Positions 652 to 5,082 of a stretch of DNA of 5,082 nucleotides are shown piece by piece. The DNA lies in contig JALSQH010000199.1 in NCBI GenBank assembly GCA_026985515.1, forward strand, positions 1 to 5,082, written 5' to 3'. The translations under genes and the position numbers were made by a program. The notes beneath the pieces are model-generated. The model saw only the letters and a program-made list of their open reading frames with translations. It searched no databases and was not told the origin of the DNA. Origin of the DNA: a bacterium. GTDB taxonomy: Bacteria; JALSQH01. Within the stretch, counting starts at the first letter, position 1. The number at the start of each line of letters is the position of its first letter.

Positions 652-1744
652 GGTGTGTCATATTTCCAGTGTTCATTCCACTTTTGACATAAGAATATTC
701 AGAAAGGAATGCAGGAGTCTTGCCAGGGCAGGATATGATGTATCACTTGTTGTCCCTGCCGAGAGGGAGATTGTGGTTGATGGTGTGAGAATCATACCAC
801 TTGAGCCACCTGCTTCAAGATTTGAAAGGGTTACCCGCACAGATTTTGAAGCATTTCTGAAGGCTCTGAAAACAGGAGCAGAGCTATTTCACTGTCACGA
901 TCCTGAATTACTTTTAATATGCTATTTGCTTAAGCTTGCGGGGAAAAAAGTAATTTATGATGTTCACGAAGATGTGCCGAGGCAGATCTATTACAAGCGG
1001 TACATTCCTGTAAAATTCAGACCACTGGTATCTTCCTCAATAGAAGTAATTGAATCCTTTTTTGCAAAGAAGTTTGACGCAATTGTAACTGCAACGGCTT
1101 TTATAAAGGAGAGATTTCAGAAAATTACTGACAGGCCAGTTGTGGAGATAACCAATTATCCGCTGGTGAATGAGCTTTTTGAGCCAGTTCCGTGGAGCGA
1201 GAGGCGTCCCGAGATCTGCTATGTGGGTGGAATAACGAGAATAAGGGGAATAGTTGAGCTGGTGAAGAGTCTTGAAAAGGTTGACACTGTTCTGCATCTT
1301 GCAGGAAGGTTTGAAAGTGAGGAACTTTTCAGGGAGGTCTCTTCCCTGCCCGGGTGGAAAAAGGTACGATACTACGGGTTCGTCTCCCGTGAGAAGGTTA
1401 AAGAAATTTTAAGCAGAGTAAAGGTGGGAATGGTCGTCCTTCTGCCTGCTCCCAACCATATCAATTCTCAGCCAAACAAGATGTTTGAATATATGTCAGC
1501 CGGGATTCCTGTAATAGGATCAAATTTTCCTCTATGGAAATCTGTTCTGGAAGATAACAGAGTTGGACTCTGCGTTAATCCTGAGGATCCAGATGAAATA
1601 GCAGAGGCGATAAATTTTCTTCTTACGAATGACGATGTGGCCAGAGAGATGGGAGAGAGAGCCAGAAGACTTATTATTGAGAAGTTTAACTGGGAAAAAG
1701 AGGAGAAGAAACTGCTTCAACTTTACAGAGAATTGCTTGATTAA
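644..1744 (+). CDS. GT4-family glycosyltransferase (GT-B fold)
   Basis: A 366-residue cytoplasmic or membrane-associated glycosyltransferase, probably transferring a sugar from a nucleotide donor to the lipid-linked oligosaccharide. The start is fixed by a good Shine-Dalgarno sequence and by the family-like opening CHISSVHSTFDIRIFRKEC at residues 5-23. The N-terminal acceptor domain carries HCHDPELL (83-90) and YDVHED (105-110), seen in GT4 enzymes of O-antigen loci. The C-terminal donor domain begins near YVGGI (193-197). It holds NKMFEYMSAGIPVIGS (278-293), where E282 corresponds to the second glutamate of the GT4 E-x7-E signature; the first glutamate position is not acidic here (INSQPN). 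The length is normal for the family. The ATG lies inside the end of the polymerase gene, so translation may be coupled. The last bases are shared with the convergent gene's stop. Sugar specificity cannot be read from the sequence. Confidence 0.9.
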   Translation: MHKVCHISSVHSTFDIRIFRKECRSLARAGYDVSLVVPAEREIVVDGVRIIPLEPPASRFERVTRTDFEAFLKALKTGAELFHCHDPELLLICYLLKLAGKKVIYDVHEDVPRQIYYKRYIPVKFRPLVSSSIEVIESFFAKKFDAIVTATAFIKERFQKITDRPVVEITNYPLVNELFEPVPWSERRPEICYVGGITRIRGIVELVKSLEKVDTVLHLAGRFESEELFREVSSLPGWKKVRYYGFVSREKVKEILSRVKVGMVVLLPAPNHINSQPNKMFEYMSAGIPVIGSNFPLWKSVLEDNRVGLCVNPEDPDEIAEAINFLLTNDDVAREMGERARRLIIEKFNWEKEEKKLLQLYRELLD

Positions 1745-1757
1745 TCCAGCAGTTTTT
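1735..1757 (+). terminator. Possible weak intrinsic terminator at the convergent gene ends
   Basis: An imperfect palindrome (GCTTGATTAATCCAGC, 1735-1750, one mismatched pair) is centred on the shared TTAA and followed on the + strand by five T residues at 1753-1757. Pairing can be extended a few A-T or G-T pairs outward. The stem is AT-rich and the symmetry may simply reflect that both genes end in Leu-Leu-Asp-stop, so a terminator role is tentative. No T tract follows on the - strand. Confidence 0.25.
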
Positions 1758-3006
1758 CTATCAGTTTTGAGTACTGTTTCCCTATTTCTCTGTATGTGAA
1801 GTTCTGGAGGAGATATTTATGGCCATTGTGACCCATTTTTTTTCTTTCGTCCGGGTCCATTTTGAATAATTTTTCAAATCCTTCAGCTATTCTTGGTTTG
1901 TCATAATCCTGAATTGTGATTCCTGCACCTGCCCGGGCAACTATGTTGTATTCCTCTTTTACTGGTGCTACAAAAAGTATGGGAAGAGATGCCGCCATGT
2001 AGTCAAAAAGTTTATTGGGACTGCCACCAAGTTCGTAAATCTTTTTGTTGGGCCACCCCGCACATGCCACATCGGACATTTTGAGAATATGGGGTACAAG
2101 AGAAGGCTTCACTCTTCCTGTGAAAAAAACGGGATATGATGGATGAGAATATTTTTTCCTCAGAGATTCAAACAGTGCTCCGTCTCCCACCACGATAAAA
2201 CAGGCTGAATTTATCTTGCTGGAAAAAGTGGCAAATCCTTCAAGGAGAGATTCAATGCCTGTTCCCAGCCCCACAGTCCCTGTGAAAACAAATTTAAAAG
2301 AACATCCTGCAGTCATTGATTCAATCTTTTCAAGCGTTTTTCTATCTTCATCACTTAAGATTTCTCTGGAAGGTTTTTCATATTTTTTTATGACTTCTTC
2401 GGGAAGCCCGTTTGGAATGTAGTTAAACTGTTCCTCTTTTAACCCCTTCTTTTTCATATGCTCTATGGCGCCGGGAATCAGAGAAACAACTGCATCTGAA
2501 TATTTGTAACCAGCTTTTTCAATAATGGAGAATGTTACCACAAGAGGATTCCAGCGGGATGTATTCATAAGTTCAGTCAGGGATAGAGGCCAGATATCCC
2601 TGACTTCAAAAATTACCCTTGGTTTTGTTCTCATGACATGGGAGAGAATGAGTGCCGGGGGAAGAACGAAGAGATGAGGAGATGAGGTAATTATGACATC
2701 TGGTGGAGGAAGTTTCTTCATACCCTCAACTGGATAAAGTGTGGAAAAGATAATCATGTTGACGATTCTTCCCACTCCATTGCCGTGATATTTTGTATTT
2801 CTTATCCATAGAAAAGGAACTCCTTTTTCATCCGCAACCCCATTCTCCGGGAAATTTGTTAAAAGGTGATGGTATGAAGAGGATATTACAAAGGCTTCAT
2901 ATCCCAGCTGCCGTAGGGCACTGGCCAGATAGTATTGTCTGAATTGCATTCCTCTTTCTGGAGTGCCGGCGTAATTGTTGACAATCCAGATAACTTTCTT
3001 TTTCAT
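1741..3006 (-). CDS. GT4-family glycosyltransferase, WbuB/WcaI-like
   Basis: A 421-residue glycosyltransferase encoded opposite to its neighbours. The protein opens directly with the group's signature, WIVNNYAGTPERGMQFRQYY (7-26), which fixes the ATG at 3006. The acceptor domain contains ITSSPH (106-111) and EVRDIWP (134-140). The donor domain contains YIPNG (196-200), FTGTVGLGTGIESL (241-254), VGDG (273-276) and GGSPNKLFDYMAA (327-339). In the last motif D335 stands where classical GT4 enzymes have the second glutamate of E-x7-E; Asp at this position is usual for WbuB-like proteins. S340 replaces the common Gly after DYMAA. WbuB itself is a FucNAc transferase, but that specificity should not be carried over. 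A short hydrophobic stretch near 113-123 may aid membrane association. There is no clear Shine-Dalgarno sequence; a TATAAT lies 8 nt before the ATG. The stop codon is nested with that of the convergent glycosyltransferase. Confidence 0.9.
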   Translation of the reverse strand: MKKKVIWIVNNYAGTPERGMQFRQYYLASALRQLGYEAFVISSSYHHLLTNFPENGVADEKGVPFLWIRNTKYHGNGVGRIVNMIIFSTLYPVEGMKKLPPPDVIITSSPHLFVLPPALILSHVMRTKPRVIFEVRDIWPLSLTELMNTSRWNPLVVTFSIIEKAGYKYSDAVVSLIPGAIEHMKKKGLKEEQFNYIPNGLPEEVIKKYEKPSREILSDEDRKTLEKIESMTAGCSFKFVFTGTVGLGTGIESLLEGFATFSSKINSACFIVVGDGALFESLRKKYSHPSYPVFFTGRVKPSLVPHILKMSDVACAGWPNKKIYELGGSPNKLFDYMAASLPILFVAPVKEEYNIVARAGAGITIQDYDKPRIAEGFEKLFKMDPDERKKMGHNGHKYLLQNFTYREIGKQYSKLIEKLLD

Positions 3007-3087: not shown

Positions 3088-5082
3088 ATGGAGATAAGCA
3101 AAGAGGAACTTGAGATAATTGAGAAAAGATTGAATTCACCCTATGTCAGATATTTCAAGAGAATCTTTGATATTACAGCTTCTCTCCTTGCTCTGATTCT
3201 TCTCTCACCTGTCTTTCTGGTGATTGCTGTCATTATTAAAATCACATCTCCCGGACCGGTTATTTTCAAACAGGAGAGGGTTGGCAGGAATTTTAAAAAG
3301 TTTACCCTTTACAAATTCAGAAGCATGAGGGTTGGAAGTGAGAGAAATGGAGCCGGGGTAACCTTTGCAGGTGATCCAAGGATTACAGGCATAGGTTCTT
3401 TCCTCAGGAAGACCAAGCTTGATGAACTGCCCCAGTTTTTCAATGTACTTAAGGGTGACATGAGCCTGGTGGGGCCAAGGGCTGTACTGGAAAAGTTTGT
3501 TATTCCTTTTAAAGATGATTATGAAATTATTCTCAGGGTGAGACCCGGTCTCACTGATTATGCAACCCTTTACTACACGGAGGAGGAAGAACTGCTGAAG
3601 GGCAAGGGATCAACACCTGAAGAGATTGAGGATTACTATATCAGACATATCCATTCTGAAAAGGTGAGGTTCTACTACAGGTATTTGAAGGAAATCTCCT
3701 TTTCCACAGACCTCAAAATTCTTTTCCTGACCGCTCTAAAACTCTTTCGCGGTATCTGGAACAGAATTATCAAGGCGGGAAAGGAGAAGGTTCTTTACCT
3801 TATTGGAGATCTTACAGTTCTGACTGTTGCATACATTGTAACATTTTACCTGAGGTTTGATTTTCACATTCCCCACAAGCACTTTGTGAATATGTGGAAG
3901 GGACTTGCTTTTTTTGTTCCGTCTGGAGTGCTTTCCTTTCTTCTGTTCAGGATTTACCGTATTGGCTGGAAGGCTTCCTCCATCAATCTGATTGAGCTAA
4001 TAAAGGCGGTTGGCCTGACCTTTCTGCTTTTTGGTCTTGCTGTACTCAGCTTGAGGCATAATTTTTTTTCAAGTTTTCCCAGATCCATAATTTTCCTTGC
4101 CCCAATAACAGGACTTGCATTCATAAAGGGTTACAGGGTAATAATAGACCAGTTCAGAGATTTTTCCCGTGGAGGTACAAGGACGATCCTCACAGGTGAT
4201 GCGGAGAAAGAGGAGTTTGAAAGGGTGATTACAGCTTTTGAAAAAATTAGCGATTTCTTCGATATTGTAGGAATTCTCTCCCGTTCTGAAGATGATGTTG
4301 GAAAGAGTTTCGAGAACAGAAAAGTTATAGGGACATTTGAGGACATATTTAATGTCGTTGAGAGGGAGGCTATAAATTCAATTTTCATTCTGCCATCCAG
4401 GGAGACCACAATCAAAGGAGAATCTTTTCTGAGGGTGAGGGAGATAACCGGGAAGAATCTTTTCACCTTTGATCCTCTTTACTACCGGCTTTTTTTCCCT
4501 GATAATTTGCAGAGCTGGATTGAACCATTGGATTTTGAATTTCTCTTCCGGAGGTTGATTTACAACAAAGAATTTGACGAGAAATTAAAGGAGAAAATTG
4601 GGGGTAAAAAGGTCCTGATTTATGGAGGTGATTCTGCCTCATTTTTAGGAACTCTCCTTTTTCATCTGCTTCTCCTTGGCAGTAAAAGGGTGGATATTGT
4701 TGCAACTGACCCCTTTGAAGCATGGGAGCTTGACAGATTATTTAAGAATCGGTGTGTCAACTGCAGGAGTGAGGTGAAATTTCATGTCAGTGCTAAATCT
4801 GTTTGTGGGGAGGAAGTGACTGCTCTGTATAGAGAGGTTCGCCCTGATTATGTTTTTTATCTGGATACATTTAGAGAGAGTGAAATTACACAATTTGTAT
4901 CTGCTGATGATCTGATAAGGAGAAATGTTCTTTTCCCCTTTAAACTTGCTGATGCGATGAATAATAATTCACCTTTTATTTACCTGTCAGGTGGAGTATC
5001 ATCTTTTGCCCGTGATGTGGGTGTTACTCTCAGAATCGCTGAATCTTTGTTGAGAAGATATAAGAATGTCTATCTTCTCAGA
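3088..5082 (+). CDS. Monotopic phosphoglycosyl transferase fused to a FlaA1/CapD-like membrane SDR protein with degenerate motifs (3' end outside window)
   Basis: One frame runs 665 codons to the right edge without a stop. An in-frame TAA at 3049 and no better upstream start support ATG 3088. Residues 1-225 are a bacterial sugar transferase (PglC/WcaJ type), which moves sugar-1-phosphate from a nucleotide sugar to polyprenyl phosphate. It shows KRIFD (24-28), a re-entrant hydrophobic helix with the Ser40-Pro41 break, GPVIFKQERVG (56-66), YKFRSM (75-80), the catalytic Asp112-Glu113 in KLDELPQ, GDMSLVGPR (123-131) and RPGLTD (152-157). Four membrane helices follow (about 235-255, 272-289, 301-322, 330-347), with the family-like D241 and LRFD (255-258). 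Then come a CoA-binding-like Rossmann domain (364-450) and an SDR domain from 506, cut by the window edge. Full FlaA1/WbpM proteins are about 600 residues, so some 150-200 residues are probably missing. In the SDR part the NAD-binding and catalytic motifs are not conserved. The transferase role is strong; the role of the C-terminal part is unknown. Confidence 0.9.
   Translation, partial: MEISKEELEIIEKRLNSPYVRYFKRIFDITASLLALILLSPVFLVIAVIIKITSPGPVIFKQERVGRNFKKFTLYKFRSMRVGSERNGAGVTFAGDPRITGIGSFLRKTKLDELPQFFNVLKGDMSLVGPRAVLEKFVIPFKDDYEIILRVRPGLTDYATLYYTEEEELLKGKGSTPEEIEDYYIRHIHSEKVRFYYRYLKEISFSTDLKILFLTALKLFRGIWNRIIKAGKEKVLYLIGDLTVLTVAYIVTFYLRFDFHIPHKHFVNMWKGLAFFVPSGVLSFLLFRIYRIGWKASSINLIELIKAVGLTFLLFGLAVLSLRHNFFSSFPRSIIFLAPITGLAFIKGYRVIIDQFRDFSRGGTRTILTGDAEKEEFERVITAFEKISDFFDIVGILSRSEDDVGKSFENRKVIGTFEDIFNVVEREAINSIFILPSRETTIKGESFLRVREITGKNLFTFDPLYYRLFFPDNLQSWIEPLDFEFLFRRLIYNKEFDEKLKEKIGGKKVLIYGGDSASFLGTLLFHLLLLGSKRVDIVATDPFEAWELDRLFKNRCVNCRSEVKFHVSAKSVCGEEVTALYREVRPDYVFYLDTFRESEITQFVSADDLIRRNVLFPFKLADAMNNNSPFIYLSGGVSSFARDVGVTLRIAESLLRRYKNVYLLR

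Follow-up and report, generated by a model that had tools for sequence, protein, structure and literature searches.

The window analysed here is one whole contig of 5,082 nucleotides (G000:C199) from a draft genome of 268 contigs and 2.36 Mb. Positions 1-651 encode a fragment of a hydrophobic protein with a weak, sub-threshold match to PF14296 (O-antigen polymerase, 14.9 bits). Two GT4-type glycosyltransferases are encoded at 644-1744 on the forward strand and 1741-3006 on the reverse strand, and their 3' ends overlap by 4 bases. A fusion gene on the forward strand (3088..5082) remains open at the contig end, without a stop codon; since the frame ends where the contig does, a frameshift or truncation of this gene was ruled out. 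Contig C200 starts with a 4-base overlap (CAGA) with the end of C199 and carries the frame on, adding 143 residues to give a protein of 808 amino acids. A BLAST alignment with a homologous fusion, L012, spans the join (543 columns, 1e-13), and the overlap together with this homology suggests that the two contigs are adjacent. Contig C198, which carries chemotaxis genes and overlaps by 3 bases only, was rejected as a neighbour of C199, and the sequence of C201 consists of N only. A PHROGs search gave no match.

The fusion protein is organised in the order PGT, four TM helices, CoA_binding_3/DUF and SDR. The PGT domain (residues 24-220, 3157..3747) scores 197 bits against PF02397, the cut-off being 27, and thus belongs to the monotopic PGTs. 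The catalytic Asp-Glu dyad is present in the motif DELPQ (residues 112-116), and 34 of the 35 family-invariant residues are retained; the sole change is GPRP to GPRA (3472-3483). The PglF-type module starts with four TM helices (residues ~231-360, 3778..4167), which AlphaFold2 models as four long helices with pLDDT >90 over most of their length. The Rossmann-like CoA_binding_3/DUF domain that follows (4174..4467) is degenerate: its glycine loop VGAGxxGE reads TGDAEKEE, the motif IDDDPxKxG reads LSRSEDDVG, only 4 of 16 conserved residues remain, and the PF13727 score (24.3 bits) falls just below the cut-off of 25, so that the domain does not qualify as a nucleotide-sensing DUF. The SDR domain, with a PglF-type dehydratase fold, begins at 4567; the window (4567..5082) covers only its first ~170 residues, while the C-terminal part is encoded by C200 (2-436).

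Alignments with PglF-type relatives reveal the loss of all functional motifs of the fused SDR on the forward strand of the window. The NAD(P) glycine loop TGAGGSIG is replaced by YGGDSASF (residues 512-519, 4621..4644) and HAAAYKHVP by YLDTFRESE (residues 591-599, 4858..4884). The segment STDKA reads SGGVS (residues 634-638, 4987..5001), with loss of the catalytic Thr, Asp and Lys, and MGATK reads VGVTL (residues 644-648, 5017..5031), which places Leu648 at the position of the catalytic Lys. The substrate motifs in the C200 part are also lost: RFGNVLGS is changed to RAGRLAGA, and RYFMT and LRPGEK are absent. Both the stand-alone SDR encoded by this genome and the first 16 PglF-type relatives to be examined keep the four motifs that fall in the window, with small variations, wherever their sequence reaches. 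Set against a family alignment of 40 sequences, the fused SDR retains 21 of the 67 invariant columns that could be aligned, against 54-75 of 75 in the relatives, and the bias in favour of the 40 comparison proteins, on which these columns were set, is far smaller than the gap seen. Among the family-hydrophobic columns 60 of 68 are still hydrophobic, and the overall hydrophobic fraction is 46%. The PF02719 profile did not match the fused SDR, for which the only hit was Epimerase at 18 bits, below the cut-off. Hence none of the marks of a 4,6-dehydratase, namely the PF02719 score, the TGxxGxxG loop, the TDK residues and the Lys of MGxTK, is found.

Because the PGT half of the chain is nearly unchanged at its invariant positions, the loss of the SDR motifs does not reflect chance divergence, and together with the state of the DUF it means that ligand sites have gone from the whole PglF-type soluble half and not from the PGT. 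The fused SDR has, judging from its sequence, almost certainly lost catalytic activity. A first-pass annotation had described it as a pseudoenzyme, which holds at the sequence level, since the motifs for cofactor (glycine loop), catalysis (TDK/Lys) and substrate are gone and the predicted fold is kept; the motif strings and residue numbers quoted there, including Leu648, agree exactly with the translation. Its statement that the glycine loop had changed with no change in length is less clear, as the alignments place one additional residue in the loop and one fewer before VGVTL. It also recognised the degenerate SDR but overlooked the degenerate CoA_binding_3/DUF just before it.

The AlphaFold2 model, built from a 38-row alignment, has a mean pLDDT of 82.6 and displays an SDR core of alternating strands and helices, the last of which is the catalytic helix. 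Comparison by VIA-align gave Z 14.5 to PglF (5bju) and Z 15.2 to BbsCD (7pcs), a tie within error, with PglF as the closest sugar dehydratase. The input alignment consists of intact relatives and may favour an SDR fold. It does not impose the fold by itself, however: the ten best matches of a single-sequence model, weak as that model is (pLDDT 59), again include PglF as well as a UDP-GlcNAc 4,6-dehydratase from Vibrio. The predicted Rossmann topology with its catalytic helix and the collinear homology to L012 are those of a pseudoenzyme that has kept its fold. The fused SDR resembles the UDP-GlcNAc 4,6-dehydratases PglF, FlaA1 and CapE (PF02719) in predicted fold, and differs from them by the absence of the glycine loop, HAAAYKH, STDKA, Lys, RFGNVLGS, LRPGEK and the PF02719 match. 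A Foldseek search with the two-domain model put shikimate dehydrogenases at the top, an order that probably arose because DUF and SDR were aligned jointly, and VIA was used instead. The best-kept helix of the SDR is the one that bore the lost Lys; the helix with the catalytic Lys is the usual dimer interface of SDRs. The oligomerisation helix (VGVTLRIAESLL) is retained.

At about 20% identity, the ~300 codons of the fused SDR are free of stops. In simulations of the neutral decay of an intact SDR, which counted stops in a 303-codon frame with indels left out, 6 of 400 frames were still stop-free when identity had fallen to 60%, and 0 of 400 from 50% downwards. The G+C content at the three codon positions (0.50/0.34/0.35) is like that of neighbouring genes, while a codon-preference log-likelihood did not separate the reading frames. 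The first-pass argument for selection rather than decay is indirectly borne out by the stop-free frame set against the simulations, the coding-like codons and the hydrophobic core. Orthologues of the dead SDR were found neither in its two-genome phylum nor among 386 genomes over many phyla nor in a search of genome contigs, so the evidence from sequence points to selection on this domain only indirectly.

The fusion gene is followed in the operon by an aminotransferase gene and then by a live SDR gene, two genes on from the fusion. The first (C200 445-1629) encodes a PseC-like DegT/DnrJ aminotransferase, for which PseC is the nearest NCBIfam model, with a score below its cut-off. The second (C200 1633-2691) starts 3 bases past the aminotransferase stop codon and encodes an intact stand-alone PglF-like SDR of 352 residues, with all motifs present (TGAGGTIG, STDKA and LGRTKK) and PglF 5bju as its best solved relative (1e-57). 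No other protein of the genome matches PF02719 strongly: this SDR scores 304 bits and the runner-up 39.

PGT-PglF fusions occur in several phyla but are uncommon: only 4 of 386 genomes reached the threshold, and one of these contains unfused neighbours; no further fusion reached it in the phyla of G051 and G139. Six intact fusions (L032/L012 of KSB1, L033/L142, L143, L144, L145 and L146) share with the window protein the PGT-4TM-DUF-SDR order and a DegT aminotransferase in the cluster. Unlike the window protein, they keep the inspected SDR motifs, and no second PGT or PglF-like SDR was found within ~12 kb of them.

Three genomes of one family in another phylum (G410, G411 and G412) encode mirror-image fusions, in which the PGT half is dead and the SDR intact, namely L136 (4548-7046, reverse strand), L137 (4799-7360, forward strand) and L138 (4092-6641, reverse strand). 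Their DELPQ dyad is destroyed and 17-21 of 32 PGT invariants remain, whereas each cluster holds an intact stand-alone PGT with 32 of 32. The dead PGT halves of these genomes and of G391 share 30-51% identity across genera, with pN of 0.33-0.54 and pS near saturation, values computed on the mirror-image fusions, the window pseudo-SDR being a single sequence. At the level of sequence these dead halves appear to be constrained. A stand-alone replacement accompanies four of five dead-half loci and none of the six intact fusions (Fisher p 0.015); because G410-G412 share ancestry, about two independent events underlie this rule. The presence of a live copy with dead halves and its absence with intact fusions indicate that dead halves go with activity supplied in trans. 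The exception is L140 of G391 (3141-5645): its SDR is live and its PGT half dead, and no stand-alone PGT or DegT gene was found on its 9.9 kb contig. The G463 protein L127/L139 (L139, 4255-5664) consists of PGT-4TM-DUF without an SDR, and genes nearby encode a LegB-like SDR that stands alone and an aminotransferase of the DegT type.

In Neisseria PglB, an example of the bifunctional monotopic PGTs (Bi-PGTs), an aminotransferase domain follows the PGT at the C-terminus (PMC6133551, PMC10942596). Like the Bi-PGTs, the window protein has an intact PGT core with a sugar-modifying domain fused C-terminally; in contrast, its fusion partner is a dehydratase module of PglF type that appears from its motifs to be catalytically dead. 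Among PGTs of the bifunctional type it adds a new arrangement, whose reciprocal form occurs in another phylum. In WbaP and other large PGTs, four TM helices and a non-catalytic DUF, structurally like the PglF N-terminus, are also attached to the PGT. However, the Rossmann-like DUF of WbaP precedes the PGT and senses uridine nucleotides (PMC10942596), whereas the window DUF follows the PGT and has lost its loop. A pseudo-SDR that works beside a live SDR is documented in BbsCD, a heterotetrameric SDR with inactive pseudoenzyme subunits (FEBS J 2021, as cited in PMC10818641). BbsCD is soluble, acts in toluene degradation and is not fused to a membrane enzyme, and its pairing is documented, while that in the window system is only inferred.

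The fused DUF and SDR are probably a pseudoenzyme retained as a membrane docking platform beside the live PGT and the stand-alone SDR. The stand-alone SDR would make a UDP-4-keto-6-deoxy sugar, from which the aminotransferase would yield a UDP-4-amino sugar, and the PGT would transfer this product onto undecaprenyl phosphate. The dead SDR could act as a membrane-bound docking partner, most likely pairing with the live SDR by analogy with BbsCD; the two putative partners are encoded in one operon, and the interface helix is kept. A scaffold role for the dead SDR itself seems an even chance. Of the two roles proposed in the first-pass annotation, scaffolding is favoured; a regulatory role through a bound sugar nucleotide is less likely, as the DUF and the SDR, the two Rossmann domains, have both lost their nucleotide-binding motifs. 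That annotation was unaware of the live dehydratase gene in this operon and of the mirror-image fusions.

The fused SDR might instead be a functionless relic, replaced by the stand-alone SDR and drifting, tolerated since its fold spares the PGT and the TM helices. Activity is indeed supplied in trans, the pseudo-SDR is known from one genome only, and L127/L139 shows that the domain is dispensable there. Against this, an unselected 303-codon frame at about 20% identity would hold several stops, and none of the 400 simulated frames survives to 50% identity; moreover, the hydrophobic pattern and predicted topology are preserved and the mirror-image dead PGT halves are constrained across genera, which leaves drift rather unlikely. 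It is far less probable that the SDR is an active enzyme with rewired chemistry, in which new residues replace TDK/Lys and another cofactor or reaction is used. The predicted fold is kept and an acidic residue follows beta 2 (VATD); in NAD-dependent SDRs the acidic residue after beta 2 binds the adenosine ribose. However, no alignment contains a Thr-Asp-Lys or a Lys near the lost sites, and one sequence cannot define a conserved substitute, so this reading is very improbable.

By analogy with the DUF of WbaP, which binds UMP, the altered pocket could act as a regulatory sensor, tuning the PGT through a bound nucleotide or UDP-sugar. In Salmonella WbaP the DUF senses nucleotides and is non-catalytic (PMC10942596), and the Rossmann topology of the window SDR is predicted to be kept, but the glycine loops of both DUF and SDR are gone, as are the SDR substrate motifs on C200, and such a sensor is distinctly unlikely. 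The draft state of the genome, with the gene split over two of its 268 contigs, could allow an assembly error or chimera to mimic degeneration of a normal gene. This is extremely improbable, since the loss extends over ~300 codons, all in frame, on C199 and C200 alike, the resemblance to L012 continues through the join, codon-position composition is coding-like and base composition is as on other contigs.

The docking platform proposed for this locus has a reverse counterpart in the related fusions, and dead halves therefore seem to be kept as structural parts. This suggests a general rule for PGT-PglF fusions: once an activity is provided in trans, the fused half that carried it can be lost, whichever of the two it is. 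We tentatively consider it possible that these fusions are membrane platforms whose dead half docks a stand-alone live copy of itself, forming a hetero-oligomer through which the synthesis of the UDP-sugar and the first membrane step would be coupled; the window protein, with a dead dehydratase, and L136-L138, with a dead PGT, would then be two reciprocal forms of such platforms. The work on WbaP (PMC10942596) raised the questions of why PglF-like modules are attached to PGTs and of whether lipid loading is physically tied to UDP-sugar synthesis. A fusion with one half dead and a live copy in the operon allows the structural role to be told apart from the catalytic one. The mirror-image fusions provide the reciprocal case, and together with the window fusion they make the coupling hypothesis testable. 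A literature search on pseudoenzymes in bacterial polysaccharide biosynthesis found no paper joining all these subjects in the library searched.

The SDR module of such proteins may also be of another type. In L132/L141 and L133 the PGT-TM-DUF part is followed by an epimerase-like C-terminal SDR with the motifs TGGAGYVG and YARTR, which indicates that the SDR module has been swapped.
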